From: a bacterium
GTDB lineage: Bacteria > CLD3 > SB21
Length of the DNA: 34,163 nucleotides
Direction of reading: 5' to 3'
NCBI GenBank assembly: GCA_016787925.1
Contig: JAEUSK010000087.1
Span: 1-34,163, forward strand
Both the position numbers and the translations under genes were made by a program. The notes below the pieces were generated by a model. It had not been told where the DNA came from, did no database searches, and worked only from the letters and a program-made list of their open reading frames with translations. Positions 3,961 through 24,259 of this stretch are shown piece after piece; within the stretch, counting starts at the first letter, position 1; every line of letters begins with the position of its first letter.

Positions 3961-4884
3961 ATGGAAGGTTCATTGGTTTGTTTAGCATTTACAGCCTTTA
4001 TATTTTTCATTATTTTTTTAGGGGCTTTTTTTGTAGTAAAACAACAAACTGTGGGACTTATTGAGCGTTTCGGAAAATTCAGGCGCATGGCCCATCCCGG
4101 ACTGCGATTCAAAATTCCCGTCGTCGACAAGCTGGTTGCGCGAGTCAATATGAGGGTACAGCAGTTAGATGTCGTCGTTGAAACAAAAACAGCCGACGAC
4201 GTGTTCGTCCATCTCAAAGTCTCCGTGCAGTATTTCGTTATTCCCGAAAAAGTCTACGAAGCTTATTATAAATTGACCAACGTGCATCAACAGGTTACGT
4301 CCTATGTATTTGACCTCGTGCGCGCGCGGGTACCCAAGCTCAAACTCGATGATCTTTTCGAGAAAAAGGACGAGATAGCCGATACCGTCCGGCAGGAACT
4401 GAATCAAACGATGGAAATATTCGGTTATGATATATTGAAAGCGCTTGTTACGGATATTGATCCCGATTCTAAAGTGAAAGATGCCATGAATGAGATTAAT
4501 GCCGCAACAAGAATGAGAATGGCGGCCGTAGAGAAAGGCGAGGCCGATCGTATTCTCAAAGTCAAAGCGGCTGAGGCGGAAGCGCAAAGTAAAGCGCTTC
4601 AGGGCAAGGGTATTGCCGATCAGCGTAAGGCGATCATCGAAGGGTTACGGGATTCTGTGGAGCAGTTTCAGCAAGCGGTCGAAGGTTCCTCGGCCAAGGA
4701 TGTCATGACGCTCGTTCTGATGACGCAATATTTCGATACATTACAGAATATCGGAGAGCATTCGCATACGAATACGATCCTGATGCCGCACTCTCCCGGC
4801 GGCCTTACGGCGATTGCCGATCAAATCCGCGACGCCATGATCATAGCCGGGGAAACAAATAAGACTAAACCGCCGGCAAAATAG
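3961..4884 (+). CDS. SPFH/band 7 (stomatin-like) membrane protein
   Basis: 307 aa. One N-terminal membrane helix (residues about 4-24) precedes VVKQQTVGLIERFGKF and HPGLRFKIPVVDKLV, the opening of the SPFH domain shared by stomatins, prohibitins and plant HIR proteins. Residues about 165-240 are rich in Ala/Glu/Lys (AAVEKGEADRILKVKAAEAE) and should form the coiled coil that assembles large rings at membranes. The general role is a membrane microdomain scaffold or chaperone; the client is unknown. A textbook GAGGAGG Shine-Dalgarno site 8 bases before the ATG fixes the start. The usual NfeD partner is not next door; an FMN reductase follows after 25 bases. Confidence 0.92.
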   Translation: MEGSLVCLAFTAFIFFIIFLGAFFVVKQQTVGLIERFGKFRRMAHPGLRFKIPVVDKLVARVNMRVQQLDVVVETKTADDVFVHLKVSVQYFVIPEKVYEAYYKLTNVHQQVTSYVFDLVRARVPKLKLDDLFEKKDEIADTVRQELNQTMEIFGYDILKALVTDIDPDSKVKDAMNEINAATRMRMAAVEKGEADRILKVKAAEAEAQSKALQGKGIADQRKAIIEGLRDSVEQFQQAVEGSSAKDVMTLVLMTQYFDTLQNIGEHSHTNTILMPHSPGGLTAIADQIRDAMIIAGETNKTKPPAK

Positions 4885-5455: not shown

Positions 5456-6250
5456 GATTTGCAATGCATTATTTGAATCTATTGTTACGATGGATCTCTC
5501 TGGAACGGTTTTCCAATTCGTTTCGTCGTTTAACTTTTCAGATGCGATAACTTTGCCGCCGCGAAATGCCGTTGAATCGTCGAGATAATACAAAGTGGCT
5601 TTTCGATTACCTAAATGATGCCGCATCGCGATGACATGGATTCCGTCGGATATTCCTATATTCAGAACCATATCAATTTTATTCTTGTTTGCACTAATCT
5701 CCAGATGGGAAACTGTCTTGCGCAAAGCAGCGACCTGTTCATTTAGCGTGCATGTTGTTTTTTTTGCCGCATCCAGAAAACTCAGCCAGAGTCCAAAGAC
5801 ATGCTCGGAATCGGTATTACCTTTAATCTGATCCCACAACGATGGATGAATGTTCCCCGCAATCTCAGGAAATATTTTTGTCCGGAAATCATCGATGGCG
5901 CCATTGTGCATAAACAAAAAGTTCTTATAACAAAACGGGTGGGTATTGGTTGACGTAACGGGCATGCCGTCCGATGCGCCCCGAACATGGGCGAAAATAA
6001 GTTCGGATGAAATTTTATTCATCATACGCGGCACATTCACATCATGCCATATTGGTTGTGTGTTAATATAGACAGCAGGCGCCGAATCTAACGTGCGGTT
6101 ATACCAACCGAATCCAAATCCGTCGGCATTCAGGCGGCCGGATAACATTTCGTTGGCGTCATAACTTTGTTTGAATAACGAATGCGGAGGGTCGAGTACC
6201 ACTTTACTGATGGACGTCCCGATGCCTTTATAGATAACTAAACGACACAT
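5444..6250 (-). CDS. Class II glutamine amidotransferase, EgtC/DUG3-like
   Basis: 268 aa. An in-frame ATG at 6292 exists, but class II amidotransferases need Cys right after the initiator Met, and MCRLVIYKG begins at 6250 with AAGGA upstream, so I use that start. DPPHSLFKQSYDA, LNADGFGFGWY, TQPIWHD, FAHVRGASDGMPV and LFMHNGAI follow the order found in EgtC (gamma-glutamyl amide hydrolysis in ergothioneine synthesis) and yeast DUG3. No egtB or egtD is nearby, so the biological substrate is open; a gamma-glutamyl amide hydrolase is the cautious name. Confidence 0.88.
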   Translation of the reverse strand: MCRLVIYKGIGTSISKVVLDPPHSLFKQSYDANEMLSGRLNADGFGFGWYNRTLDSAPAVYINTQPIWHDVNVPRMMNKISSELIFAHVRGASDGMPVTSTNTHPFCYKNFLFMHNGAIDDFRTKIFPEIAGNIHPSLWDQIKGNTDSEHVFGLWLSFLDAAKKTTCTLNEQVAALRKTVSHLEISANKNKIDMVLNIGISDGIHVIAMRHHLGNRKATLYYLDDSTAFRGGKVIASEKLNDETNWKTVPERSIVTIDSNNALQILPL

Positions 6251-10008: not shown

Positions 10009-11736
10009 TTATTTAATAACCTTGATCGTGATTCCCCATTTATCCGGTTGATAGGGCGGATCATCATTCCAGTCTTCAAACGAGTGGGACCCGTCGCTGA
10101 TATACACCACCTCGTATTTTCCGGCATCTAAATAAATAGTGCCGTCGTAAATTCGGTTCTTGCGGGCGCCTCCGGCATTCTGGCTCATGCCGTAGGTCAT
10201 CTCCCAAACGGTCTGTCCCGTGGATGCGTTTTTGATCCAGCCGTAATCATACATGTGCCCGCTTTTGCCTTCACCTAAACATAATATCCGAACTTTGGTG
10301 GTACTCTTGAGAGCAAAATCTTTCGTGCGATACTCATCGTCGCCAACGTGAACGATCTGCGCAAGAAGGTTTTCGTCCTCACTCTCTCTGTATTTGGACA
10401 AATTTTTTGCATCGTTGTTATTGACCAGGCTAAGCGTAATTCCCCATTTGCTTCGGTTATATGGTGGATCGTCGTTCCAATCATCATACGAATGAGAGCC
10501 GTCGGTTTTGTAATTAACTAAGTAATTGCCCGGTTCTAAAGTAACCGTTCCTTCAAACAGACGATTTTTATCAGTCCCGCCGGCAAATTTGGTCTCTGAA
10601 TAATGCATATTCCAAACGGTTTGGCCCGTTTCCGCATTCGTGATCCACCCGTAATCATACATCCGGTGGTCGCGGCCTTCGCCCAATGAATAAATCAAAA
10701 TATCGGTAGATTTTGAAAGCGAGAATCCTTCCGACTTGAATTCGCTGTCTCCTACCCGCGTAATAGAAATAATCTCCTGTTTTTTTGATTTTTTGTAATC
10801 TCGCACATATGCCAGGTCTTCTTCGTCCAGCACGCTCACCGTAACACCCCAATTAGCCGGGTCATACGGCGGTTGCATATTCCACTCTGTGAATGAATGT
10901 GAATCATCAGTTACGTATGTTGCGACGTAATTACCCGCCCGCAGATTAAGAATCCCGGAATAAGACCTGTTCTTCTCTGCGCCGCCGCCATGGGATGTAT
11001 TTTCAAAACGCATTTCCCAAACTGTTTTTGCTGTTTTATCATCGGTGAGCCATCCGAAATCATACATGTGTCTATCCTGGCCTTCTCCAATTCCGTATAT
11101 TCTGACCTTCATGTCTTTTTCAAGCGTGAATCCTTTTTCAAGATATTCGCTGTCCCGGGCGCCGGTCAATGCGCATATGACTTTCTTGGATTTCGATCCG
11201 TCAAACGACGCAAAATTATCTGCAGATGAATTGGTGACAATTCTCAATTTCCATTTATCCGCATCTCTGTAAATATCGCCATCTTCAACAAAAACTTTTA
11301 CTAGGTTCTTGAAAAATTCGCCCATATAACTGTCCGAACGGGATATTCTGATAATTTTTTGGCCGTAAGTGGAAAAATAAGCTTCGTAATTTCCAGGCTG
11401 AATCGCCATGGTTCCTCGATATAGGATATTGTTTGTTCCTGATTCCGAACTTATGTTATTGGGTTTCATTTCCCAGACAATCTCTTTGGTGTCACTGTTT
11501 AATATCCATCCATAGGCGATCATGGGGTTCCAACGATTCCATTTTTCAGATCTTGACATCACGCCGACGGCGTCAATAGTGATAGTTGCCGTACGTTTGA
11601 CCGTAAACCCTTTCACATATACCTTGTCCATTTTAAAATTACCAAGATCAGCTATCACATACTGCGAGAAAAGCGGGCCCGTGCAGGAAACCGTCATTGC
11701 CAAAACAAGCCAGAATCTCTTGATGTCATTAAGCAT
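10009..11736 (-). CDS. Secreted protein of four tandem ~110-130-aa repeats, function unknown
   Basis: 575 aa. The ATG at 11736 is chosen because AGGTGA precedes it and a signal peptide (WLVLAMTVSCTGPLFSQ) follows directly; an ATG at 11784 would add 16 residues in front of the signal. The mature part is four copies of one module. Copies 2-4 are clear: each has 'GEG..RMYDYGW', 'TGQTVWEM', 'GG..KNR.Y.GT..L..G.Y', 'DGSHS...WN..PPY' and 'WGIT' in that order. Copy 1 is diverged (AYGWILNSDTKEIVWEM, ILYRGTMAIQPGNYEAYF). I know no named domain for it. The regular strands suggest a beta-sandwich exported to the periplasm or cell surface. Confidence 0.85.
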   Translation of the reverse strand: MLNDIKRFWLVLAMTVSCTGPLFSQYVIADLGNFKMDKVYVKGFTVKRTATITIDAVGVMSRSEKWNRWNPMIAYGWILNSDTKEIVWEMKPNNISSESGTNNILYRGTMAIQPGNYEAYFSTYGQKIIRISRSDSYMGEFFKNLVKVFVEDGDIYRDADKWKLRIVTNSSADNFASFDGSKSKKVICALTGARDSEYLEKGFTLEKDMKVRIYGIGEGQDRHMYDFGWLTDDKTAKTVWEMRFENTSHGGGAEKNRSYSGILNLRAGNYVATYVTDDSHSFTEWNMQPPYDPANWGVTVSVLDEEDLAYVRDYKKSKKQEIISITRVGDSEFKSEGFSLSKSTDILIYSLGEGRDHRMYDYGWITNAETGQTVWNMHYSETKFAGGTDKNRLFEGTVTLEPGNYLVNYKTDGSHSYDDWNDDPPYNRSKWGITLSLVNNNDAKNLSKYRESEDENLLAQIVHVGDDEYRTKDFALKSTTKVRILCLGEGKSGHMYDYGWIKNASTGQTVWEMTYGMSQNAGGARKNRIYDGTIYLDAGKYEVVYISDGSHSFEDWNDDPPYQPDKWGITIKVIK

Positions 11737-11857
11737 AAAATCACCTGCTGTATTATTAATGAGCCTCAAACCGGAGGCAACCACATAAAAATACGCGACT
11801 AAGAAATAATTGTTTCAATAAAAGTGTAAAAATATTGTTTTTCACAAGTTTATAGCG

Positions 11858-11884
11858 AAAAAGGGATTGTTTTGAGCAACTCCT
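11858..11884 (-). terminator. Terminator-like hairpin, near-copy of the sdhB terminator
   Basis: AGGGATTG at 11862-11869 pairs imperfectly (one G-U, one mismatch) with CAACTCCT, with five T on the minus strand. It would stop leftward transcription out of the AT-rich island. Its sequence closely matches the terminator at 24204-24234 beyond the other end of the island. Confidence 0.45.
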
Positions 11885-11973
11885 CGACAAAGTCAAATAT
11901 GCGCCAGTTTTTCTATTTTTTAAGATTGGCGGGTATTAAACAGGAGCTGTGACCTTATCAGACGTTATTATTT

Positions 11974-12053
11974 TTACGGTTTTGTATTAACAATCAAAAT
12001 GCTCCTAAACCTGAAGCTTGTCATGCATCTGCAGCAGTTACAATGATACTTGC
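11974..12053 (-). pseudogene. Relic: 3' end of a PD40/Ig-domain protein gene
   Basis: Minus-strand translation gives SIIVTAADA*QASGLGAF*, aligning with VTATDAGQASGLGAFKLS, the C-terminus of the intact PD40-Ig gene at 16687-17841. The identity is visible at DNA level too (CTGAAGCTTGTC is shared) and reaches the CCG-TAA stop context. Two TGA codons and a small deletion make it non-coding. It abuts the 3' end of the SDR gene; the rest of the stretch 11737-12072 shows no gene. Confidence 0.7.
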
Positions 12054-12072
12054 TCGACTATTTTTTCGTTCG

Positions 12073-12792
12073 TTACATTCTGTCATAAATTGGTCCAGGT
12101 ATTCGTTTCAAAATTAATGCAATTAGTAGCCAACGTTTTGTAACGTATACTATTTTCTTTTTCATTTTAATTCCTTCATAAATTTGTTGAGTAGTTTTTT
12201 CAACCGACATGACCCAGAATAATCCTTCACCTTTAGCCATTTCAGTATTAACAAGTCCCGGTCTTATATCTGTTACAAAAATGTGTTGTCCTTGTTTTGT
12301 CGCTTTTTGTCTTAACCCTTCCAAGTAATTTATTTGATAGGCTTTTGTTGCATAGTAAGAAGGCGCTTGTCTGCTCCCACGAAGTCCAGCGATTGAGCTT
12401 ATACCGACTAAATGCCCTGATTTTTGCTTTTCAAAGTAGTTATAAGACCAGTCAGCAACACAGGTAAAACCAAGAACGTTCGTATCAATAGTACGCTTCT
12501 CGACATCAAAATCCAGATTCTCATTCATGTTACCAGTTCCTGAACTAATGACTGTCAAGTCAAGTCCACCGAGTTCGACAGTTAATTCTTCTAATTTTTT
12601 TACCACACTTTTACTGTCTCTTACGTCAATGGTTTTGATAAAATAGGAATTGGGGTTTTCTGATTTCAATTCTTCGAGTAATTCAGTTCGTCTGCCTGTT
12701 ATTCCAACTTTATAACCATTGTCAACAAGTATTCTTGCAAGTCCTTGTCCAATCCCCGAAGTCGCACCGATTATGATTGCCTTTTTCATCAT
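12073..12792 (-). CDS. Short-chain dehydrogenase/reductase (SDR)
   Basis: 239 aa, classical SDR. AIIIGATSGIGQGLA is the TGxxxGxG cofactor loop, TGRR the NADP-type end of strand 2, ISSIAG supplies Ser, and YYATK is the YxxxK catalytic pair. After RPGLVNTEMAKG come a short hydrophobic segment and a basic C-terminus, as in SDRs loosely bound to membranes. The substrate is unknown. The start may be the first or second of two ATGs (12792 or 12789); no Shine-Dalgarno site is seen. It lies 80 bases after the MDR gene in the same direction and has the same low GC. Confidence 0.88.
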   Translation of the reverse strand: MMKKAIIIGATSGIGQGLARILVDNGYKVGITGRRTELLEELKSENPNSYFIKTIDVRDSKSVVKKLEELTVELGGLDLTVISSGTGNMNENLDFDVEKRTIDTNVLGFTCVADWSYNYFEKQKSGHLVGISSIAGLRGSRQAPSYYATKAYQINYLEGLRQKATKQGQHIFVTDIRPGLVNTEMAKGEGLFWVMSVEKTTQQIYEGIKMKKKIVYVTKRWLLIALILKRIPGPIYDRM

Positions 12793-12872
12793 ATATTTTG
12801 ATTCTTTCTGTTGTCTGTTTTGGGTTTGCTACAATGACCTCTTTCGTGTGTTGTGCGATCGTTATCTTTTAT

Positions 12873-13847
12873 TTATATTTGAATGGTTACAATTACATTA
12901 CCTCTTTCGAGTCCTCTTTCGATATATCGATGAGCTTCAATCATTTGTCCCAGCTGAAAGCTTTGATCTATTATTGTTTTTAACCTTCCTTCTTTAAATA
13001 GCTGAATAAGTTCTTTGAGAAAGATTAAACGTTCAGAAACTGGTTTGAGTCCTGTAGCCGAAAACACGAATTTCCTACCATTGAACATTGAAGTCCAGAA
13101 GGTTTGAAAAAGAATTGATATAGTTGGATAAGTAGTCAGGTAGAACCCTCTTCTGGTAAGTAAGTTTCTGAACTGTAAAGATGATGGTTTACCTGACACA
13201 TCTAATATGACATCATATGTCAAACCATTTTTAGTAAAACCCTCATCCGTATTATCAATTACGTTATCAGCTCCTAGTGATTTCACCAACTCCAGATTGG
13301 ATGAACTGCACACACCGGTAACTTCCGCCCCAAATATTTTGGCTATTTGTACTGCAGCTGAACCTATACTCCCGGAAGCTCCATAGATGAGAACTTTTTG
13401 TCCACTCTGAATATTTGCGATTGCTTTCAAAAGATTCCATGCTGCCATAGCCCCACATATAGGTGCAGCTTCCTCGTTGGTTATATTTGGTGGCTTTATT
13501 GACAATAAACCAGCTTCAGGTATACACATATACTCGGCATAACAACCGAAACCAAATCCAGTGACACCAAAAACCCTATCTCCTTTTTTAAATATCGTTA
13601 CATCTTTGCCAACTTCTTCAATCTCTCCACAAAATTCAGTACCAAAAATAGGTTTTTTGGGTTTTGTTAATCCAACAAAAACTCGTACAAAATATGGTTT
13701 ACCCTTTCTCTGCATAGTATCCTCTATTCCTACAAAGACCGTAAATACTTTTATAAGTAGTTCTTTATTATTCGGAACAGGATTTTCCACCTCTTTGAAT
13801 TGAAGAACTTCCGGTGGCCCGTATTTTTCACAGACAATTGCTTTCAT
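12873..13847 (-). CDS. Zinc-less MDR oxidoreductase (quinone oxidoreductase-like)
   Basis: 324 aa, medium-chain dehydrogenase/reductase. MKAIVCEKYGPPEVLQFKEV opens the GroES-like domain, and GTEFCGEIEEVGKDV and KKGDRVFG are typical of it. LIYGASGSIGSAAVQIAKIFGAEVTGV is the NAD(P) Rossmann loop and LGADNVID follows. The cysteine cluster of the structural zinc is absent, as in quinone/crotonyl reductases. It ends IERGLERGNVIVTIQI. No Shine-Dalgarno site is visible before the ATG. Probably cotranscribed with the SDR gene. A fragment resembling the end of this family occurs at 18212-18274. Confidence 0.88.
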   Translation of the reverse strand: MKAIVCEKYGPPEVLQFKEVENPVPNNKELLIKVFTVFVGIEDTMQRKGKPYFVRVFVGLTKPKKPIFGTEFCGEIEEVGKDVTIFKKGDRVFGVTGFGFGCYAEYMCIPEAGLLSIKPPNITNEEAAPICGAMAAWNLLKAIANIQSGQKVLIYGASGSIGSAAVQIAKIFGAEVTGVCSSSNLELVKSLGADNVIDNTDEGFTKNGLTYDVILDVSGKPSSLQFRNLLTRRGFYLTTYPTISILFQTFWTSMFNGRKFVFSATGLKPVSERLIFLKELIQLFKEGRLKTIIDQSFQLGQMIEAHRYIERGLERGNVIVTIQI

Positions 13848-13880
13848 TTTTTTCTATATGATTTTATATTCTAATTTTTG

Positions 13881-14105
13881 TTATAGCACTTTATCATGCA
13901 ATTCAATAGATCTAAATTGTCTATAAATTGGTTTTCCGTCTTGAGTTGCATGTAATTCGATTCTGTCAAGATTCATTTAATACGTACCATCAATTACAGG
14001 AACAATACTCAGTATTCCTGCAATTGGACCAATAACGTATAATACACCAACCAAAATTGTTTTTTTCTATTTGAGTTCACTTTCTCATTTTTTATTTTTA
14101 ATCAT
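13881..14105 (-). pseudogene. Relic of a small membrane protein gene (DUF4386-like start)
   Basis: Fills most of the 346-base stretch between two genes. With single-base frameshifts in A-runs the minus strand reads MIKNKNEKVNSNRKK, then TILVGVLYVIGPIAGILS (one hydrophobic helix), IVPVIDGTY, a stop, and MNLDRIELHATQDG with KPIYRQFRSIELHDKVL to a TAA at 13881. The hydrophobic opening recalls DUF4386 proteins; the tail is unassigned. Two stops and probable frameshifts argue against a working gene. Confidence 0.4.
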
Positions 14106-14193
14106 GAGTGCCCCAAGATTATTGAGAATGAAGTAAATCTCATAATTCGCTATTATTGTAAAGTTGCAGCGGCCGCCCGGGTCTTGATAAGAA

Positions 14194-15036
14194 TTATTCA
14201 ATGATTTCTTTTCTGATTTTCTCTATTGCATCTGAACGAACCCAATAAATATCACTTTTCCCATTTTTATCATTATACCTGCTGAAGAAAATATATTTTG
14301 CGTCAGGCGATAAAGATGGACATGTCTCCTCGTATTCAAGAGTATTTATTTGATTGCCAAACTTAATAGGCTCAGTCCATTTGCCATCAACTTTCTTAAA
14401 TGCTATATAGATATCTCCCTTACTATTAAACAATATGAAATCTTCATCTGGCGATATAAAAGGATGTATACCAAACCTTAGTCCTCCTTTTTGAGTTTCT
14501 TTGTATTGTCCGTCTATTAACTGTGATTTATAAATCTGAAAATTAGCTAAATTAGTATAGTACAAGGTTCCGCTCTTTGCAACAGTCGCCCAAAACACGG
14601 GGGTGCTATTCACTGGTGATTCCAATAAAACGGGAGAATCCCACCCATTTACTGATTTTGTAGAATACCATAAACGAGAAGTATCATTAACATCCGATGA
14701 AAAATAAAGTTTTGAGCCATCCCATGTGTAAAATGCTTCAAACTCCCAGCTATTTGTACCTCTTAAATTAGCTACTTCCGGTTTTGACCAATTTCCATCT
14801 TTTAGTTTTCTCATCACCATAAGGCCTAGATTTCCCTCTGTAAAAAATAGTTCATTATACTTTGGTGAAATGGATAAGCCGTATTCATACCTGTCGGGAA
14901 TAGAAATAATCCCTTTTCCAAAAATTTTCGGAATTGAATCCGGGGGGTTTTCAAAAATTTTATTGCTGTCGTTTTGAGCATATCCGATAAACGAAAGTCC
15001 AAATAATAATATTAAAGAGTAAATTAATTGTGTCAT
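14194..15036 (-). CDS. Secreted TolB/PD40-like beta-propeller protein
   Basis: 280 aa. The ATG at 15036 begins a signal peptide (MTQLIYSLILLFGLSFIGYA, then Q). The open frame back to 15174 runs through a decayed hydrolase gene and is not used. The mature part has repeated PD40 phrases such as 'GLSISPKYNELFFTEG', 'WDGSKLYFSSDVND', 'FISPDEDFILFNSKG' and 'SLSPDAKYIFFSRY', that is, strands ending in F-F/Y-F after 'SPD', as in TolB-type propellers. It is a paralogue of the gene at 16687 but lacks the C-terminal Ig-like domain. Periplasmic or lipid-free secreted; function unknown. No Shine-Dalgarno site. Confidence 0.82.
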   Translation of the reverse strand: MTQLIYSLILLFGLSFIGYAQNDSNKIFENPPDSIPKIFGKGIISIPDRYEYGLSISPKYNELFFTEGNLGLMVMRKLKDGNWSKPEVANLRGTNSWEFEAFYTWDGSKLYFSSDVNDTSRLWYSTKSVNGWDSPVLLESPVNSTPVFWATVAKSGTLYYTNLANFQIYKSQLIDGQYKETQKGGLRFGIHPFISPDEDFILFNSKGDIYIAFKKVDGKWTEPIKFGNQINTLEYEETCPSLSPDAKYIFFSRYNDKNGKSDIYWVRSDAIEKIRKEIIE

Positions 15037-15070
15037 TTTAAAATGATTTTTATGGTTGTTGTTGTTTTTA

Positions 15071-15152
15071 ATGCATGCCAACCAGCTAAATTCTATGCCG
15101 TCATATATGTTTTCATAACAGCGAATACATATGTTTGACTCAGCTATTTTTT
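15071..15152. repeat. Intergenic repeat R, copy 1
   Basis: Shares with 16450-16522 the run 'GTCATATAT ... AACAG(C/T)GAATACA(T/C)ATG ... TGAC(T/A)CAG ... TTTTTT'. The copies are about 70% identical by eye with a 6-base gap. Each lies upstream of a secreted-propeller gene start or between two of them. Confidence 0.5.
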
Positions 15153-15155
15153 TAT

Positions 15156-15400
15156 TTATTTGTTGTTGATCCATTTTTTAATAATACCTTCTGCTTGTTT
15201 TACAATTGATTTTCCATTGTGAACCATTTGCTATCAAAAAATATTGCTTGTTTGGGTGCATCCAATTCTCATAAATTGAATCGCAACCTTTTTTGCCAAC
15301 TATATTATCTTTCTCGCCATAAATAAGCAATAGAGGATAATTTGCGGTTTTGGAATAATCAATCATTGAATCCAGATAATATTCAATGTTTAATAATATT
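15156..15400 (-). pseudogene. Relic: C-terminal part of an alpha/beta hydrolase
   Basis: The frame reads EYYLDSMIDYSKTANY and PLLLIYGEKDNIVGKKG, the Asp-bearing strand of alpha/beta hydrolases, followed by QYFLIANGS. One extra A in CACAATGG then shifts the frame; removing it restores GSHGKSIVKQAEGIIKKW and a stop at 15156, including the expected catalytic His. Only about 80 residues remain; the N-terminal half with the nucleophile is missing. The 5' end runs into the stop region of the Kelch gene, suggesting a deletion joined the two. Confidence 0.65.
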
Positions 15401-16354
15401 AGGTGATTCCTCGATAGTTCCCTCATAAACCGTATTATATCCATTCCATGTTGGAGGTCCATCTGTACCTCCAATAATGTATAATTTATTATTCAAAATT
15501 GCTGAGCCCATAAAAACGTTGTTCTTCGGTAGCGGATTACTTTGGCTCCACAAACCCGCAGCAGGATCAAACAAATCTACACGAGTCATATCTTTATCAC
15601 CCGAAAATCCACCTGCGATTAATATCTTATTGTTGATTAAACCTATGCCAGAACCGATTCTTATAGTTGGTAGTGAAGCACAAGTATCCCATTTATTTGT
15701 AGCTGGATCATACACCTCGACACTTGAAGTAAATGACCAAATATCTCCACCTTTATTTGTGTTTCCTCCAAAAATATATATCTTATTATTATAAACTGCT
15801 GCTGAATAATTATGTCTTGGTGTAGGGATAGGTGCCTTTTCTTCCCATGTATTTGTTTGTGGGTTATACACTTCATTCTTTGCTGAAACTTTCGACCAAC
15901 TTTCCAATCCTCCAATAATGTATATTTTGTTATCTACAACAGCAGCTTTTATGTGTTGCCTGGCTGTAAGCATAGGGGCAAGGGTTTGCCAGCTTTCTGT
16001 TGTTGGATTAAACATTTCATTTTTATCAAGAAAACCATCTCCTCCTATAGCATAAATTTTACCCTCAACGCAGGCCGTTGCAAGATTCCAGCGTGCGGTC
16101 GGCATGTTAGGTTTCTCAATCCATTCATCCATTGCTAAATTATATTCGTACATCAGTTTTGATGCAGTTGCTTTACTGGTATCAATTTGTATTTGTCCAA
16201 CGATAAAGTAAATTTTTTCTAGACAAGTTACGGCTGATCCACTAAAACATTTGTTTTGAAGTTCCGCTTTGGGTTTCCATACTATATTTTGTGAATAGGA
16301 ATTAATAAATGTTAAGTATGAAAAGAGTAGCGTAAAATAAATATTTGTTAGCAT
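15383..16354 (-). CDS. Secreted Kelch-repeat beta-propeller protein
   Basis: 323 aa. A signal peptide (MLTNIYFTLLFSYLTFINSY, then SQ) is followed by about six Kelch blades with the usual 'IYIIGG', 'VEVYDP.TN.W' and 'P.PR...A' phrases, for example IYAIGGDGFLDKNEMF, IYIIGGLESWSKVSA, IYIFGGNTNKGG, ILIAGGFSGDKD and LYIIGGTDGPPTW. It ends YEGTIEESPNIIKH. The last few residues may come from the neighbouring hydrolase relic, since the stop lies at the junction, so the natural end may have been slightly different. Exported; binding partner unknown. No Shine-Dalgarno site. Confidence 0.85.
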   Translation of the reverse strand: MLTNIYFTLLFSYLTFINSYSQNIVWKPKAELQNKCFSGSAVTCLEKIYFIVGQIQIDTSKATASKLMYEYNLAMDEWIEKPNMPTARWNLATACVEGKIYAIGGDGFLDKNEMFNPTTESWQTLAPMLTARQHIKAAVVDNKIYIIGGLESWSKVSAKNEVYNPQTNTWEEKAPIPTPRHNYSAAVYNNKIYIFGGNTNKGGDIWSFTSSVEVYDPATNKWDTCASLPTIRIGSGIGLINNKILIAGGFSGDKDMTRVDLFDPAAGLWSQSNPLPKNNVFMGSAILNNKLYIIGGTDGPPTWNGYNTVYEGTIEESPNIIKH

Positions 16355-16449
16355 TTTAATAATTTTTTGAGTTAGACAATCGTTTTATAACATTTACCAG
16401 TTGCTTATCTCTATCCTATTTAGCTCTTACGGAATCGATCCATATTGCA

Positions 16450-16522
16450 AATAACTAGCATATAAGTATAATGTCGTCATATATAACAGTGAATACACAT
16501 GCCTGACACAGTTGTTTTTTCA
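16450..16522. repeat. Intergenic repeat R, copy 2
   Basis: Partner of the repeat at 15071-15152. It lies in the 332-base stretch between the Kelch gene and the second PD40 gene. The remainder of that stretch is AT-rich and holds only the tiny open frame noted at 16525-16623. Confidence 0.5.
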
Positions 16523-16524
16523 TT

Positions 16525-16623
16525 TTACATTCTTTTTTCGTTCTTATTTGGAACGCATCGATAATTGGTTAGTTGCATTAAAGAATTGTATTTCTTAACT
16601 ATTAACCATACCGCAAAAGCCAT
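16525..16623 (-). CDS. Possible 32-aa small ORF with a good ribosome site
   Basis: ATG at 16623 is preceded by CGGAGGTGCTTCAA, an unusually good Shine-Dalgarno site for this island. The product is MAFAVWLIVKKYNSLMQLTN followed by YRCVPNKNEKRM. It could be a small peptide gene or the leftover 5' end of a lost gene. No family recognised. Confidence 0.25.
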   Translation of the reverse strand: MAFAVWLIVKKYNSLMQLTNYRCVPNKNEKRM

Positions 16624-16686
16624 TTGAAGCACCTCCGTAGTGCTGTATTTAGGGTAAATAATTGTTTTCATTTGTGACTATTACTC

Positions 16687-17841
16687 TTACGGTTTGGTGG
16701 ATATTGACAATTTAAATGCGCCTAGACCTGAAGCTTGTCCTGCATCCGTTGCTGTAACTAAGATCTTGAGTTCACCTGCTACTGTTGGTGTACCTGAAAA
16801 AGTCTTTGTAAGAGCATTAAAACTTAACCACGAAGGCAGAGGACTCCCATTAATTAGGGTTGCAGAATAAATAAAGGTGGCGTTGCCGTCCTCATCAAAA
16901 AACGTATCGTCCGGAACCGTAAAACTGAATGGATTCCCAACGAATCCGTTTTGGCTGTTAATTTTGTTTTTTAGGTAGGGCGGAATATTCGTGTGTTTTA
17001 GACTATCGATCAGGCCGTCCACGCGAACCCAATACACTTGGACGTCAGAGTAATCTTGTTTGGTGCCCGTTGAGTAAAACAGATATTTATTATCAGGAGT
17101 GACGAAAGGACCCCACATACCAAGCCCGAAGTTTATTATAGACCCTAACCCTCTCGGGTTGGTCCAATTGCCGTCGTGTTTTGGATAACTGATACTTAAA
17201 CCGAAAGGCGTCGCTACGATCATGAAAGTCTCATCTTTGGAAACAAAGAAATCCAAATTATCCCAAGCCGTATTCAATGGCATTCCCAAACCAATTGCCG
17301 TCGTATCAGAGCTATTAAATTCAATCTTACACCAGTCACTTACTCCGACCGTGTTTTTGGGCCGCGACGAAACATAATAATTTCCTTTGCCGGTAACTTG
17401 CAGATAATGCGCTGAGTCGAGTTTGGATAAAATTCTTTTTGGATTGCCCCAATTCAGGTCCTTTTTTATAGAACAAAACGTTTCAGAATTTGTATTTTCA
17501 AAATACATCGTATCGCCTGTAATAGATAATGCCGGAGCAATATAACCCTCAAATAAATTGAAAGGTCCGGTCCATTTACCGTCGGAATAACTATAACTTT
17601 TGATCCTTGGAGTATTGACAGGGTAATAACCTTTCAACTCTGAATAATAAATTTCCTTGCCATCATTAGAAATTGCCACTCTTTCGGCTGCAAAGAATTT
17701 TGGGCTCACGGAGAGGTTAAATATTTTAGGAGTATCTCCCGGAGGTGTTTGCCCCAGGTATAAACTATCGGTTGGAATTGCTTGTGCAAAACCGGTGCTT
17801 ACCAAGAACAAAGAAAAGATAGAAAAGAAAATCATTTTCAT
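16687..17841 (-). CDS. Secreted PD40 propeller protein with C-terminal putative-Ig domain
   Basis: 384 aa. A signal peptide (MIFFSIFSLFLVSTGFAQ) precedes PD40/TolB-like repeats (ISNDGKEIYYSEL, ITGDTMYFENTN, VSKDETFMIVATP, VTPDNKYLFYSTG) over residues about 35-275. The C-terminal 100 residues form a cadherin-like/He_PIG module: NPFSFTVPDDTFFDEDG, PLPSWLSFNALTKTFSGT and LKILVTATDAGQASGL. AAAGGAT precedes the ATG. It is a paralogue of the gene at 14194-15036, and its 3' end has a decayed copy at 11974-12053, so this family has been duplicated within the island. The GC is a little higher than that of its neighbours. Confidence 0.85.
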   Translation of the reverse strand: MKMIFFSIFSLFLVSTGFAQAIPTDSLYLGQTPPGDTPKIFNLSVSPKFFAAERVAISNDGKEIYYSELKGYYPVNTPRIKSYSYSDGKWTGPFNLFEGYIAPALSITGDTMYFENTNSETFCSIKKDLNWGNPKRILSKLDSAHYLQVTGKGNYYVSSRPKNTVGVSDWCKIEFNSSDTTAIGLGMPLNTAWDNLDFFVSKDETFMIVATPFGLSISYPKHDGNWTNPRGLGSIINFGLGMWGPFVTPDNKYLFYSTGTKQDYSDVQVYWVRVDGLIDSLKHTNIPPYLKNKINSQNGFVGNPFSFTVPDDTFFDEDGNATFIYSATLINGSPLPSWLSFNALTKTFSGTPTVAGELKILVTATDAGQASGLGAFKLSISTKP

Positions 17842-17962
17842 AAATTTATCCTTTAAAAGTTGTAAATAAATTAAATGTGTTTTTATGGCACAAGAATATT
17901 ACATATTTGGTTCTAAGCTACTGCGATCGATTTTCTAATTTAGCGACTCCGGATGGGGTTCG

Positions 17963-18133
17963 CTATTTGTTACATTATATATCACCGGGTATTCTTTCTG
18001 CTTCCTCGAACAATAACTATGACTTTTATATTACGGTTCAATAATTCTCTTACTAGTTCACGTCCAGTAGCGCTATTTGCTCCAATCACTAACGCTATCA
18101 TTATCTAATTCCTTTATTAATTTCAAAAATACT
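17963..18133 (-). pseudogene. Internally deleted copy of the NAD(P)-binding gene at 22650-23432
   Basis: The minus strand from 18101 reads MIALVIGANSATGRELVREL then LNRNIKVIVIVRG, nearly the same as the intact MIALVVGANGATGSQLVREL. The upstream bases to 18133 also match. A one-base insertion after the GGA codon shifts the frame. At about 17984 the sequence jumps to the intact gene's 3' end (shared GTGATATATAATG). About 580 bases are missing, with TATATCA at both joints of the intact gene. Confidence 0.8.
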
Positions 18134-18211
18134 CTATGAGTATAGCGACGTTGCCGCTAACCGGCAGCTTAGAACAGAATGCCAATTAACCGCAACGGTT
18201 TTAGCCTATCA

Positions 18212-18274
18212 TTACAAAGCTATTACTACTTTTTCTTTTTTATGACCTTTATCGACACATCGGTGCGCTTCAAC
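18212..18274 (-). pseudogene. Relic: C-terminus of an MDR alcohol dehydrogenase
   Basis: Minus-strand frame QHVEAHRCVDKGHKKEKVVI followed by AL and TAA. This is the standard ending of zinc-type or zinc-less MDR proteins ('AHRYVDKGHKKGNVVI'), compare IEAHRYIERGLERGNVIV in the intact gene at 12873. A stop lies just upstream, so only about 22 codons survive. With the relic at 17963-18133 it accounts for part of the 507-base gap 17842-18348; the rest shows nothing recognisable. Confidence 0.55.
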
Positions 18275-18348
18275 ATGTTGTTATGTGCAGTCACCCATTT
18301 TATCAACAGTTCGCCACAAATTGGAATTTAGTTCAAACATCTGATTGA

Positions 18349-19197
18349 TCATTCAAGAACATAATTTTTAGTTTCCATTTCAACACTAAATATTTTGATG
18401 CTTGCAAATTCATTTTTAAGCTGAGTTGCGACCTCATTATATCCAACATATTCATCGTGATGAATGTGCATTAATACAATGTGTTTAGCTTTGATATAAT
18501 TTCTTACCAATTCAATTCCTTTGCAATTAGATTCCCAAATAAAACCATTTCCTAAAAATGCAACATCTATATTTTCCTTATCAAGTCTAAAGTGTTCGTA
18601 TTCTGCAATTCCATCTTCATTTGAGTCTCCACTGTGAAATATTTTTACTCCGTCTACATTAAATAGAAAGCCAACATTTTGAACCTTTTGATGTCTGTTA
18701 ATTTCTTCTCCGGTGACCGGATCATCTGTATAGTAAGGCCCGTGAGAAAGTCGGTAAACTCTAACTCCAATACCATTGATTGTTGTGTCTATGTAGGTAG
18801 AATGATCAGGAGTGATTTCGACTAAATTGTTTTTAACCTTTTCATAGTTTTCTTGTTTTTTCAGGTCATCGATAGTTTGTTTACACGAAATTATTTTTCC
18901 TTTTGTATTATTCATTAGATGTTCAATTACAAATGGCGGATAGAAATGATCAACGTGCGCGTGAGTCGTTGCTATTAAATCTATATTCTTAAAATATTTT
19001 TCATTTTTTAAAATTGAATTCATTGTTGCTTCAGTTGGAATATTACAAAACCCGTAATCTTTATCTCCAAATAATGCATCAATTAATATTTTTTTATCTT
19101 CCACTTTTATCAAAAAACCTTCATTGGCTATATAAGTAACTTCAAGGTTCTTGGGTATTGTTTGGGAAAATACAATATTGCCAAACAAGAAAAACAA
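18349..19197 (-). CDS. Secreted metallo-beta-lactamase-fold hydrolase
   Basis: 282 aa from a TTG at 19197. ATTHAHVDHF is the HxHxDH metal site, HSGDSNEDG the later Asp ligand, and LMHIHHDEY the final His. Around it the MBL fold is complete (VTYIANEGFLIKVEDKKILI to the C-terminus). It resembles 'UlaG-like/MBL-fold' hydrolases rather than true carbapenemases. The signal peptide is only complete if translation starts nine codons earlier, at a CTG (19224): LKKFTLISILFFLFGNIVFS, with no ATG available. A GIVEN ATG may have mutated to CTG, or the shorter TTG product is made. Expected periplasmic; substrate unknown. Confidence 0.8.
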   Translation of the reverse strand: MFFLFGNIVFSQTIPKNLEVTYIANEGFLIKVEDKKILIDALFGDKDYGFCNIPTEATMNSILKNEKYFKNIDLIATTHAHVDHFYPPFVIEHLMNNTKGKIISCKQTIDDLKKQENYEKVKNNLVEITPDHSTYIDTTINGIGVRVYRLSHGPYYTDDPVTGEEINRHQKVQNVGFLFNVDGVKIFHSGDSNEDGIAEYEHFRLDKENIDVAFLGNGFIWESNCKGIELVRNYIKAKHIVLMHIHHDEYVGYNEVATQLKNEFASIKIFSVEMETKNYVLE

Positions 19198-19283
19198 GAT
19201 TGATATTAATGTGAACTTTTTCAGTGTATTAAGGCCTTTTAAGTTAAGTAAAAAATATTTTTCAAAGATATCACAAAAACCCT

Positions 19284-19553
19284 CCGTTATCGACCTTTAA
19301 CGCGTAACTGGACTGTTTTTTGTGAAAAAAAAGAGGTAGGGGACCAATTGGAGCGTCCTTCGGGGAGAAAAAGAACCGAACATCAATTATTCCTAAGTTC
19401 TTTTGACAGAAAAAATGTCTCAAATTGGTATTCGGTGTAATGACTCGCGTCGGCATTGAGTGATGAGCAGGTGGGGACTGATTCTGTTCAAGAATATAAG
19501 GGCGTTGAAAAGTATGAGTAAGAATGGTTGGATTTCAAAAAAAATAGACTAAC
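19284..19553. repeat. Long intergenic element E, copy 1
   Basis: Aligns over its whole length with 21187-21479: 'CCGTTATCGACCTTTAAC', 'TTGGAGC', 'GGAGAAAAAG', 'CCGAACATCAA', 'CTCAAATTGGT', 'GATTCTGTTCAA' and 'GGATTTCAA' occur in the same order and spacing. It occupies most of the 445 bases between the MBL and YCII genes. No open frame is conserved between the copies, so it is probably not protein-coding. Confidence 0.75.
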
Positions 19554-19642
19554 AAAACACGTAATTTCATATGAAAAACTTCAGCTCATTGACGGCAGAG
19601 TAGCAGGAAATAGGTTGATATAGTCTAGATTTACTCCTTCTA

Positions 19643-19903
19643 TTATTCCCGAATCCATTCTTTCACCCATTTGCTTTCAATCATGTCCTGAACAACGAAC
19701 GGATCATTCACAGCCAACTCGGTAGCCATTTGCATATTTTCCGCTTCGAATAATATTAATCCGCCGCTTCTGTCACTGAATGGACCACCAGAATAATTGA
19801 TCGGTTTACAGTCGTTCCAATATATAATGTGTTCGGGAACAATATTTCGAATTTTTTCGGGATTATTTTTCATCAGATAGAAAAAAACGAATTGTTTTGC
19901 CAT
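19643..19903 (-). CDS. YCII-related protein
   Basis: 86 aa, starting at the ATG at 19903 with AAGGAG 10 bases upstream; the longer reading to 19930 is not needed. MAKQFVFFYLMKNNPEKIRN, VPEHIIYWND, GGPFSDRSGGLILFEAEN and ATELAVNDPFVVQDMIESKW follow the YCII/dimeric alpha-beta barrel pattern, with the His of the first helix and the 'GPF.D..GG..I' hairpin. Small cytosolic proteins of this family include muconolactone-isomerase-like and dehalogenase-like enzymes; the reaction here is unknown. It lies downstream of the beta-lactamase-like gene in the same direction, and the pair is bracketed by the two copies of element E. Confidence 0.85.
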   Translation of the reverse strand: MAKQFVFFYLMKNNPEKIRNIVPEHIIYWNDCKPINYSGGPFSDRSGGLILFEAENMQMATELAVNDPFVVQDMIESKWVKEWIRE

Positions 19904-19946
19904 CGAAAACGCTCCTTTTCTAATAAGCATAACTATTTAGCGACGT

Positions 19947-21125
19947 TTATTTAGATTGTTGATTGGTGTTATTGACAATTTGTTCAATAATTCTTGTAAT
20001 AAGAATTTTCCCTGCGGGGTTATCTTTTTTAGACCAATTGTATGAAACAACTATTGATACATCTTTTTCGGGAAAGTAAAATGGGAAGCATTCGCCACCA
20101 AATCCACCACCAGGATGCCCTTCCATTTTGTAGCCATTTAGTTCATATTGAGCCAATCCTAAACCATACCCAACAATATTATTATCACGGCCATTTTCTC
20201 GTGCATTTATGTAAATTCTACTCATCTGAAGTGTCTCTCGCTTCAATACTTTGTAATGAAAAAAAGCATCAAGCCAAATCACTAAATCCTCTGAAGTGGA
20301 AGCCATTGAGCCGGCTGAATAGGTGAGAGTACTCCATGATATATTTGATGGTTTAATAACATGCGGTCCAAACGGTAGATATTCATCATAACCGCTAATA
20401 AGTTCATCGGGTAATTGCTTATAATAAGGAAGAAAATAGGTGTTCTTCATTTTTAGAGGCTTGAAGAATTCATTCTCAAGCTGATTAGCAATCTTATCCT
20501 TGCCAACTTTTTCAGCAATTAGTCCTAAAAGTAAATAATTATTGTTTGCATAAACAAAAGACCTCTGATCAATAGGGGTAACTTTCATGTTTTTCATAAT
20601 ATTATTCACTACTATTTGAGCATCCCATTGCTTTTTGTCTGACAGAACGGATTTTATTAAAATCATTGGATTGGTAAAAAGATTTTCTCCTATCCCACTA
20701 TTGTGGTTAAGTAATTCTTTTATTGTTATAGAATTTGCAGAAGGCAAATCGGGGAACCACTTATCAATTGTGTCATCATATGATAATTGACCTTCTTCCA
20801 TAAGACGACTTATCAATGCGGCAACAAACATTTTTGTTGTACTTCCAATTCGAAAAATGTTCTGGTTTGTAATGTAAGACCTCTGGTGTTCAAAATCTTC
20901 TGTACCACTTGATGCCAGCATCATTTTGCCATCAGGAAAAAGAATCCCCGCTTGAAGTCCCGGTAGTTTATATTCATTAATCGCCGAATCTAAAATTTTT
21001 TGTAACTGATTATTATCGTTACTCATTAAATCATTTGGTTTATAGGGTTTGTATGATGCACAACCTACTAAAATAGTAGAAATGATAACAACTGATAGAA
21101 TGGTCATACTTTTGTTAGAATTCAT
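19947..21125 (-). CDS. Class C beta-lactamase/esterase-family lipoprotein
   Basis: 392 aa from the ATG at 21125 (in-frame ATGs at 21131 and 21149 are also possible; no Shine-Dalgarno site decides). The N-terminus MNSNKSMTILSVVIISTILV ends in a lipobox (VGC), so it is a lipoprotein. The serine-hydrolase motifs are present: FRIGSTTKMF (SxxK), VYANNNYLLLG (YxN) and GHPGGGFGGE (the HxG replacement of KTG). The family covers AmpC-like lactamases, D-aminopeptidases and esterases (EstB type). Without the KTG box a true antibiotic-resistance role should not be assumed. It stands 43 bases upstream of the YCII gene, probably one transcript. Confidence 0.88.
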   Translation of the reverse strand: MNSNKSMTILSVVIISTILVGCASYKPYKPNDLMSNDNNQLQKILDSAINEYKLPGLQAGILFPDGKMMLASSGTEDFEHQRSYITNQNIFRIGSTTKMFVAALISRLMEEGQLSYDDTIDKWFPDLPSANSITIKELLNHNSGIGENLFTNPMILIKSVLSDKKQWDAQIVVNNIMKNMKVTPIDQRSFVYANNNYLLLGLIAEKVGKDKIANQLENEFFKPLKMKNTYFLPYYKQLPDELISGYDEYLPFGPHVIKPSNISWSTLTYSAGSMASTSEDLVIWLDAFFHYKVLKRETLQMSRIYINARENGRDNNIVGYGLGLAQYELNGYKMEGHPGGGFGGECFPFYFPEKDVSIVVSYNWSKKDNPAGKILITRIIEQIVNNTNQQSK

Positions 21126-21186
21126 TTGCATACTACTGGATTTGACCATTTATTAAAATATCGCCCAAATTTACCAAAAAGAATGG

Positions 21187-21479
21187 CCGTTATCGACCTT
21201 TAACACGTAAATGGACTAATTCTTAACAAACAACACGAACCTAATGAACTTATTGGAGCATTCCTACGAGGAGAAAAAGCGCCGAACATCAACTATCCCG
21301 AACTTCTTTGACATTAAAAGTGCCTCAAATTGGTTTTGAAGTACTGATTCCCTTCAGCATGCGTTGTCAACGGGTGAAGAGGAGAGAGTGGGATCGGATT
21401 CTGTTCAAAAATATTAGGATGCTGAAAAATAAGAGTGACAACGGCGGACGGATTTCAAGAAAAATTGCCGAATAAACGA
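21187..21479. repeat. Long intergenic element E, copy 2
   Basis: Second copy of the element at 19284-19553, filling almost all of the gap between the beta-lactamase-like gene and the AraC gene. It differs by small indels, is slightly longer, and ends GCCGAATAAACGAC two bases before the AraC stop codon. It accounts for the stretch 21150-21481, where no gene is seen. Confidence 0.75.
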
Positions 21480-21481
21480 CT

Positions 21482-22621
21482 TTAATTCACAGACAACACA
21501 AGGCTTGACCGGCAATTTCTGTCCATCATATATTTTGACCGGTATTCCTGCGGGGTTAAATCTGTATACAATTTAAACTGATTATTGAATGATGACTTTG
21601 AATTGAAACCAACTTTATAAAGGATTTCGAGTACGGTAAGCTCACTGTAGTTCGAATCAGCCAACATTTCCATGCTCTCCTTAATGCGAAACTCAAGGAT
21701 GTAGCTTTTAAAACTCTTGTTGTGCGTTTCATTAATTATCTGTGAGAGGGTTCTGGGATTTACTGAAATTTCGTCGGCAAGAGATTCAAGTGATATTTCC
21801 GGGTTGAGGAATGGTTTATCTGTTTCCATATGGGAATTCAATCTTTGCAGATATTTTCTTCTATCATCTTCCGTAAGTTTGTTGTTTTTGTATTTCGTTA
21901 TGATATAATAAATATCCGGTTTTAACAGCAGAATGAACATAATTGCGTTTACAAATAGAAAAGCGGCCAAGGCATATATACTTGCCGTAAATGCGCACCA
22001 CCACGGCTGCCTGATGATCATATAAACAGCAAAAGAATTTAAATTTATGACCCAGATAACAATGAATCCCAATAGCAACGTTTGAAGCCAAATACTATGA
22101 GAAGAAATTCTAATACTCTTATAAAGATCCCTGAAGCTAATATTCATTGATTTCATTCGTAATACGGACAGCGCTATATATATGAAGTTGTGCGTCAGGA
22201 TAAATATAGTGTCAAATAAGTTTATGATGGATTCCCATATAATAAAACGTTTAGTATTTGCATAAAAAATCAGTAAGAAAAATAGAACAACTGTAAATGG
22301 CAAGAAATGAAATGAACTGCGATAATGGATGATATCATTTCTTTTCAAAAATGAATTGACATAAAAATAAATCAGCGGGCCAATCAGAAAAGAAGTTTGC
22401 CTCAGTACATAAATAGGTTTATGCCAATCTAAGAAACCTTGAAAAGCGTAATAGCTTATCAAAAACGAGTAGATAATCTGAACGCCAAAAATCGCCAGGA
22501 GTACTGCTAATATCTTATTTTCATGACTACAGCCTTTTTTTGTAACAAAGAAGAACAATGACAATATGGTCGTAAGGAAAACACTTAGAAGTGTTATTAT
22601 GGTAAAGAAGTCTAAAGTCAT
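21482..22621 (-). CDS. Membrane-anchored AraC-family transcription regulator
   Basis: 379 aa. Residues about 1-235 form seven hydrophobic helices, the sensor or anchor module common in Bacteroidota. The C-terminal 110 residues are the two-helix-turn-helix AraC domain: ISLESLADEISVNPRTLSQI (first HTH) and TVLEILYKVGFNSKSSFNNQ (second HTH, with the family 'GF.S.S.F...FK'), ending TPQEYRSKY. A strong GGAGG site 9 bases before the ATG sets the start. The ligand is unknown. By position it could control the downstream beta-lactamase/YCII unit or the adjacent NAD(P)-binding gene; neither is shown. Confidence 0.92.
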   Translation of the reverse strand: MTLDFFTIITLLSVFLTTILSLFFFVTKKGCSHENKILAVLLAIFGVQIIYSFLISYYAFQGFLDWHKPIYVLRQTSFLIGPLIYFYVNSFLKRNDIIHYRSSFHFLPFTVVLFFLLIFYANTKRFIIWESIINLFDTIFILTHNFIYIALSVLRMKSMNISFRDLYKSIRISSHSIWLQTLLLGFIVIWVINLNSFAVYMIIRQPWWCAFTASIYALAAFLFVNAIMFILLLKPDIYYIITKYKNNKLTEDDRRKYLQRLNSHMETDKPFLNPEISLESLADEISVNPRTLSQIINETHNKSFKSYILEFRIKESMEMLADSNYSELTVLEILYKVGFNSKSSFNNQFKLYTDLTPQEYRSKYMMDRNCRSSLVLSVN

Positions 22622-22649
22622 GGTTTTGCCTCCGTATCCAAGATTGTTG

Positions 22650-23432
22650 TTACGGATTTATTTTCTTCCTTGTGCATATATAAGGATAGCAAGTATTACT
22701 TGTCCTACTATTTGTTGCATTATATATCACAGGCATTTTTCCTTTCCATTTCTCCCAAATATTATCATTGGTTATTAATTCAGATATGAAATGCCCAACA
22801 TTAATTCTACTTGTTTTGCCGGGATCAAAGATTGGGCTTCGAATGGGTGAAGGAAATACCCGGTATTCAGAAACAGTGGTTTCATTTATTAGTGTATCCG
22901 GTCGAACGATAGACCACTCTATAATCTTTTTATTATTGCCAACGTCTTTTCTTAAATATTCTGCCGCCCGCTCATTATCCAGTTGCGGAGGCAATAGATT
23001 TCTTAAAAGAGAAAAAATTAATTTCTCCTTAAATGATAATTGTTCGCTCATATCTTTGTTGTTAACAGCTGTAGTATTCATTAAAACAAATTTTACAGGT
23101 ATAGTAGGGTTGTTTTCTTTTATCGCATTGCACAACTTTTTTACAGAATCTCTCACAAGCATTTTGGGATTTCCATAAATACCCTTTAGATTTATGTTGT
23201 GTCCCAAACACGATGCGACCGCATCACAATTCTTTATGTAACCCAACACCGCATTGTGACTCAAATGAAGAATACTCGCTTCAATTATTATCAAGTTTTC
23301 ATGTGTTCTTATATCATCGGGTATTTTTTCTGCTCCTCGAACAATGACTTTTACTTTTACGTTACGGTTCAATAATTCTCTTACTAGTTGACTTCCGGTG
23401 GCGCCATTCGCTCCAACCACTAATGCTATCAT
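22650..23432 (-). CDS. NAD(P)-binding (atypical SDR, NmrA/SDR_a5-like) protein
   Basis: 260 aa. MIALVVGANGATGSQLVREL is the GxxGxxG Rossmann loop of atypical SDRs; VIVRGAEKIPDD, CDAVASCLGHNIN, FVLMNTTAVNN and WSIVRPDTLINE follow the SDR_a5/NAD(P)H-binding order. AAGGA precedes the ATG. After KGKMPVIYNA the protein carries a tail (TNSRTSNTCYPYICTRKKIN) that looks non-conserved and may be read-through of a drifted stop. An internally deleted copy is at 17963-18133. Probably a soluble reductase or regulator; substrate unknown. The AraC gene begins 28 bases downstream. Confidence 0.85.
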   Translation of the reverse strand: MIALVVGANGATGSQLVRELLNRNVKVKVIVRGAEKIPDDIRTHENLIIIEASILHLSHNAVLGYIKNCDAVASCLGHNINLKGIYGNPKMLVRDSVKKLCNAIKENNPTIPVKFVLMNTTAVNNKDMSEQLSFKEKLIFSLLRNLLPPQLDNERAAEYLRKDVGNNKKIIEWSIVRPDTLINETTVSEYRVFPSPIRSPIFDPGKTSRINVGHFISELITNDNIWEKWKGKMPVIYNATNSRTSNTCYPYICTRKKINP

Positions 23433-23612
23433 TATCTAATTCCTTTGTTAATTTCAAAAATACGAAAAATACGATAAATCACTTTTGTAAGCCAAGTCAA
23501 CTTTACACGGCAAACCAATTCTGAAAAGCCAAATCCTAATGCGACTCAATATGGAAGCATCGAAGAAGCGGTCGCAGTTGAAGAGTGGGTTATATGGCAT
23601 ATACAGCATGCT

Positions 23613-24044: not shown

Positions 24045-24203
24045 AATATATTTTCTTTCAACTTTAAGAATATTTCGAGAGCCAAAACGACGCTGCTTTT
24101 GACCCGTCCGCTATAAGTTCTAAATTTTTAGAAAAGAGAATACGCATCTTATAGATAATTGTTTCACAAAGTATAAAAATAGGGCTCTAGATAGATTAAT
24201 GAC

Positions 24204-24234
24204 AAAAAAAAGGGATTGCTTTTGACAACCCCTT
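24204..24234 (-). terminator. Rho-independent terminator of the sdh operon
   Basis: On the minus strand AAGGGGTTG pairs with CAATCCCTT (one G-U, 7-base loop), followed by eight T, 26 bases after the sdhB stop. A near-copy is at 11858-11884. Confidence 0.85.
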
Positions 24235-24259
24235 CCTAGAAAACAAATATTTACCGAAA

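Follow-up and report, generated by a model that had tools for sequence, protein, structure and literature searches.

A 170-bp relic of an NAD(P)-binding protein gene as the shortened arm of a probable insertion scar in a bacterium of the lineage CLD3; SB21

Results

Organization of the locus

The window analysed here is a stretch of 34,163 nucleotides (positions 1 to 34,163 of contig JAEUSK010000087.1, assembly GCA_016787925.1, GTDB lineage Bacteria; CLD3; SB21), to which all coordinates given without a locus or contig name refer. It contains an intact gene (22650-23432) whose 260-aa product belongs to the NAD(P)H-binding family NAD_binding_10 (75.4 bits against a cut-off of 27.2). In a search of named genomes the most similar protein came from an Ignavibacteriales metagenome-assembled genome (locus L044, 68% identical), so that the bacterium is probably an ignavibacterium. 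A relic of the same gene lies on the far side of a block of four other genes, and a search of the whole genome revealed no copy besides these two. For comparison within the genus two genomes were used, G001 and G002, while G004 represents a relative from the same family. The features of the region are the following:

16687-17841, reverse strand: secreted protein gene with a C-terminal putative Ig domain (He_PIG); in G002 directly beside the full-length orthologue of the NAD(P)-binding gene
17842-17962, reverse strand: ancestral 3'-flanking sequence of the NAD(P)-binding gene that extends into the leader of the next gene; similar to G001 and G002
17963-18132, reverse strand: the relic, left arm of a direct repeat of about 756 bp, cut to 170 bp by an internal 587-bp deletion
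17963-17984, reverse strand: 3' piece of the relic, 21 of 22 positions identical to 22708-22729; the joint TATATCA (17978-17984) is common to both pieces
17978-18132, reverse strand: 5' piece of the relic, leader plus the initial 123 coding bases, interrupted by a 1-nt insertion; 89% identical to 23310-23463
18133-22707, reverse strand: inserted block between the arms, 4,575 bp, four genes
18349-19197, reverse strand: metallo-beta-lactamase-fold protein (metallo-hydrolase), insert gene
19643-19930, reverse strand: YCII protein, insert gene
19947-21149, reverse strand: serine beta-lactamase-family protein (serine hydrolase), insert gene
21482-22621, reverse strand: AraC-type regulator, insert gene
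22650-22707, reverse strand: replaced 3' end of the intact gene (about 19 final codons) and junction with the insert; no similarity to the relic or the G002 orthologue
22708-23463, reverse strand: right arm of the direct repeat, containing the intact NAD(P)-binding gene (Pfam NAD_binding_10)

Structure of the relic

Both pieces of the relic lie on the same strand as the intact gene. Alignment against the window matched 17978-18132 to 23310-23463 with one gap and 138 of 155 positions identical (E value 1e-53). The initial annotation, made from the letters of the window, had described this match as about 130 coding bases plus the leader; the match itself was recovered, but it comprises 123 coding bases and approximately 31 bases of leader. 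The 3' piece, which that annotation had likewise proposed, aligns over 17963-17988 with 22708-22733 at 24 of 26 positions. Similarity to the left of position 17984 is thus present as predicted, and it reaches even further left, through 17842-17962, than had been described.

In the intact copy, the heptamer TATATCA is found at the two sites first reported (22723-22729 and 23310-23316), 587 bp apart, and the relic has it once. Junction homology of at least 7 bp was obtained in 0.13% of random breakpoint pairs lying 300-700 bp apart in the NAD(P)-binding gene unit, which agrees with the earlier proposal that some 580 bases were deleted between short direct repeats. Such deletions are the classical outcome of RecA-independent slippage or annealing, and the relic, which has kept one 7-bp repeat at its joint, shows nothing unusual in this respect.

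The frame of the relic is broken after about 34 codons by the one-base insertion that had been noticed before (GGAAGCA versus GGAGCA), and a glycine of the glycine-rich nucleotide-binding motif has been replaced (GANGATG to GANSATG). Among 33 codons compared between the relic and the intact copy, 6 differ non-synonymously and 7 synonymously, whereas the same codons of the intact copy and the G002 orthologue show 4 non-synonymous and 12 synonymous differences, which is consistent with relaxed constraint on the relic. It is a well-resolved, ordinary pseudogene of a known kind.

One ancestral gene in two arms

G002 possesses a single full-length NAD(P)-binding gene (C56:2509-3243, 82% protein identity) that directly adjoins the He_PIG gene, at the position syntenic with the relic. 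Since the gene to the left of the relic has a full-length copy as its immediate neighbour in G002, a full-length copy once stood at the site of the relic, which supports the deletion model. The left flank of the relic together with its 3' piece is 93% identical to G001 (128 sites) and 79% identical to G002 (118 sites), and this flank corresponds to what follows at the natural 3' end of the full-length gene in these sister genomes. The likeness of the intact copy to both the relic and the G002 orthologue, in contrast, ends at 22708, and the next 58 bases, which supply its stop codon, are different. At the other end, relic and intact copy share their leader up to 18132 and 23463, respectively, and diverge beyond. 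Since the left flank of the relic continues the natural 3' end, the likeness of the intact copy ends at 22708 and the leader is common to both, the two represent one ancestral gene in two arms, forming a direct repeat of about 756 bp. The intact copy carries the 5' side and has lost its native 3' end at 22707/22708, and the relic keeps the ancestral 3' end and the downstream junction. On the 5' side of the gene G002 carries an extra gene, so that the 5' context is imperfectly matched.

The initial annotation had regarded the relic as a duplicate of the intact gene. Two copies are indeed present, but neither is simply a duplicate of the other, as one ancestral gene has probably been split into two arms by an insertion. 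The deletion between short direct repeats is well supported and the deletion model was right, while what had been called a duplicate is more aptly seen as one of the arms of a probable insertion scar.

Age of the duplication

At the DNA level the relic and the intact copy are 89% identical to each other, while the G002 gene is 84% identical to the intact copy and 82% to the relic. With L044 as the single outgroup, 5 sites unite relic and intact copy, 2 unite intact copy and G002, and 2 unite relic and G002. The bootstrap value for relic plus intact copy was 55% on about 150 sites, a rough figure because the tree included the mis-oriented outgroup rows G008 and G053; at this value a two-copy state older than the split of the genus keeps a low probability. 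From these comparisons, a duplication after the split from G002 appears favoured but not proven. One G001 contig starts at the repeat boundary (C78:1) and was considered as a collapsed second copy; as neither the insert nor a second copy was found in G001, this contig start is taken as coincidence.

The inserted block

The limits of the insert are the limits of the repeat (18132/18133 and 22707/22708), and only the relic continues into ancestral flank. DNA matching the four-gene block was sought in both same-genus genomes, G001 and G002, and none was detected; a protein search of the same two genomes yielded no relative of the metallo-beta-lactamase-fold gene. A plasmid origin of the block was rejected, as no match at the DNA level was obtained in the plasmid collection. 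Integron cassette sites and RNA elements were rejected as well, because no Rfam family matched anywhere in the window. Candidate attC-like words (TGTTATGTGCAGT) were seen by eye at 18280-18315, downstream of the metallo-hydrolase gene.

Other direct repeats in the window

Further direct repeats surround or subdivide the same gene cluster:

16679-16768, reverse strand: second repeat, right arm, tail of the He_PIG gene in the intact copy
11966-12052, reverse strand: second repeat, left arm, orphan He_PIG tail in ancestral downstream context, 79% identical to the intact tail
19252-19569 and 21155-21489, no strand: third direct repeat, non-coding, about 330 bp, around the YCII and serine hydrolase genes, 70% identical
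11790-11900 and 24139-24250, no strand: fourth, weaker direct repeat, terminator-leader-like, around the whole gene cluster, 72% identical

The orphan He_PIG tail continues into an ancestral downstream region common to G001 and G002, and between the two tails lies a second insert of 4.6 kb (12053-16678), for which a comparison with G001 and G002 gave no matching DNA at this junction. The third repeat contains well-conserved blocks, and no copies of it were found elsewhere in the genome; a coding function was discarded, since no frame is open in both copies. The fourth repeat flanks the whole accessory cluster, which is bordered by the succinate dehydrogenase operon on one side and the gene at 10009-11784 on the other. 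In G004, sdhB is directly joined to the orthologue of this gene by one such intergenic region. In G005, another long gene stands between the succinate dehydrogenase gene and that orthologue, and the empty outer site is therefore not universal in the family. The fourth pair was given less weight because it is short and consists partly of terminator and leader. Within 12 kb, the window holds several such patterns.

Similar scars elsewhere and controls

Comparable structures were observed at other loci in sampled stretches. At L084, an inserted gene, presumably for a DUF1016/YhcG-like nuclease, follows a gene that we take to encode an M28-peptidase-like protein and whose tail is copied over 164 bp (2873-3034 and 4228-4391). 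In G001 and G002 the insert behind this M28-like gene is another one, and the repeat there measures 42 bp. At L058, a 58-bp duplication of the tail of what we assume to be maeB (4325-4382 and 5890-5947) encloses a presumably lipoprotein-like gene, and the corresponding site is empty and cleanly single-copy in G000 and G001. L101 shows the same anatomy, with a pair that is presumably HipBA-like following a gene taken to be PAP2-like. Short intergenic repeats of about 60-95 bp near maeB (L058 3650-3745 and 4245-4320) belong to a dispersed repeat family with dozens of occurrences in G000 and G001.

A strict scar pattern, defined as a direct repeat with one copy in a gene, one non-coding copy and a gene in between, was counted in sampled DNA. 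It was encountered twice in 400 kb of G002 and twice in 346 kb of G000 (window excluded), and once each in 400 kb of the control samples G004 and G055. The idea of a genus-specific excess was dropped, and given the similar rates in the controls we claim neither an enrichment nor a speciality of the lineage.

Discussion

The comparison with the sister genomes led us to a history that we consider likely, namely that the G002 state is ancestral, that the block was inserted together with a duplication of its target and that the downstream arm then decayed to the 170-bp relic. The ancestor would have carried one NAD(P)-binding gene beside the He_PIG gene, and the four-gene block would have been inserted by a process that duplicates its target (insertion with long target duplication). 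The copy on the upstream side would have remained an open reading frame because the insert supplied a stop codon, and the copy on the downstream side, although retaining the natural 3' end, would have become redundant. This second copy would then, in either order, have acquired the frameshift and been shortened by 587 bp when the two TATATCA repeats slipped or annealed, and the relic would be what remained of it. A target duplication is supported by the similar case at the maeB tail in G002, where the 58-bp repeat has clean single-copy empty sites as counterparts, and by the neighbouring He_PIG gene, which shows the same layout with a tail duplication of about 87 bp. Counting against it, the insertion leaves neither an enzyme nor a target motif.

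The same anatomy can also be produced by homology-facilitated illegitimate recombination, a process known from Acinetobacter, Pseudomonas and Streptococcus that presupposes a competent or conjugating host taking up linear DNA. In this case, DNA of a related strain would have brought along both its own form of this gene and the four-gene block, one end entering by homology and the other being joined illegitimately upstream of the resident gene, whose copy would be the orphan. Such a combination of one homologous and one illegitimate end can leave a resident orphan downstream of the new DNA, as has been proposed for T6SS effector arrays in Vibrio, where orphan genes downstream of inserted modules were explained in this way (PMC5361080). 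If the incoming DNA carried a related allele, the copies would have differed from the outset, which the 11% divergence allows, and at the M28 gene in L084 the sisters are matched by the orphan but not by the intact copy at 7 sites, nearly as many as the 9 at which the orphan alone departs from them. However, the two NAD(P)-binding copies resemble sisters more than a donor and a recipient. They group together and neither groups with G002, so that the donor would need to have been a close relative. Moreover, over five loci the differences from the sisters comprise 34 orphan-only, 20 intact-only and 49 shared changes, and the surplus of orphan-only changes is as expected for copies that were identical and then decayed. 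These site patterns would fit copies that started out identical and of which the orphan decayed faster, but they do not tell a donor allele from a resident one and are also compatible with a close-relative donor. Altogether, we regard an origin by this route as possible, though rather unlikely.

A simple tandem duplication of the gene, after which the four genes were inserted between the copies in an unrelated event and one copy suffered a deletion, would need common types of events only and would account for the direct orientation of both arms. Nevertheless it seems improbable, since the ends of an independent, later insertion should not fall on the repeat limits, and the same layout is repeated at the adjoining He_PIG locus. 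An equally low probability is given to the idea that two copies are ancestral to the genus and that G001 and G002 lost one copy and the block by recombination between the repeats. This would indeed restore exactly one copy, and the phylogenetic support for a later duplication is weak; the relic and the intact copy are, however, closer to each other than to G002. That the relic serves as a short gene for a 40-aa peptide or as a regulatory element is very improbable, for although a 40-codon frame from the original ATG and the leader are preserved, the motif has lost its glycine and the frame then shifts, roughly half of the codon differences are non-synonymous, and the window has no Rfam match. 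An assembly artefact might be suspected in a genome of 312 contigs, but it is hardly credible for a relic that shows 17 differences from the intact copy in 154 aligned sites, is joined at 7 bp, which is not normal for assemblers, and has a left flank whose synteny extends to two other genomes.

Insertion with long target duplication, the process that we favour, has been described for Helicobacter pylori, mainly with restriction-modification genes (Nobusato et al. 2000, as reported in PMC1643837, PMC3031569). The locus studied here resembles those cases in that the block is missing from relatives, a long direct repeat of the target surrounds it and the empty site holds a single copy. It differs from them in its cargo, which consists of ordinary enzymes and a regulator instead of a restriction-modification system, and in one arm having since been cut to 170 bp.

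On a larger scale, we suggest only tentatively that the cluster between sdhB and the gene at 10009-11784 may grow by repeated transposase-free insertions, each of which would duplicate a native flank (756, about 87, about 330 and about 111 bp), and that the diverged repeats and orphan tails might record the nested order of these gains.

Annotation usually passes over orphan tails of genes and small relics in intergenic regions. When related genomes are available, they mark the points at which accessory genes entered, the length of the duplicated target and the copy that took over, and in the present case the relic reveals that the C-terminal end of the protein encoded by the intact gene has been replaced. 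Read in this way, transposase-free insertion with target duplication would carry ordinary metabolic genes as well.
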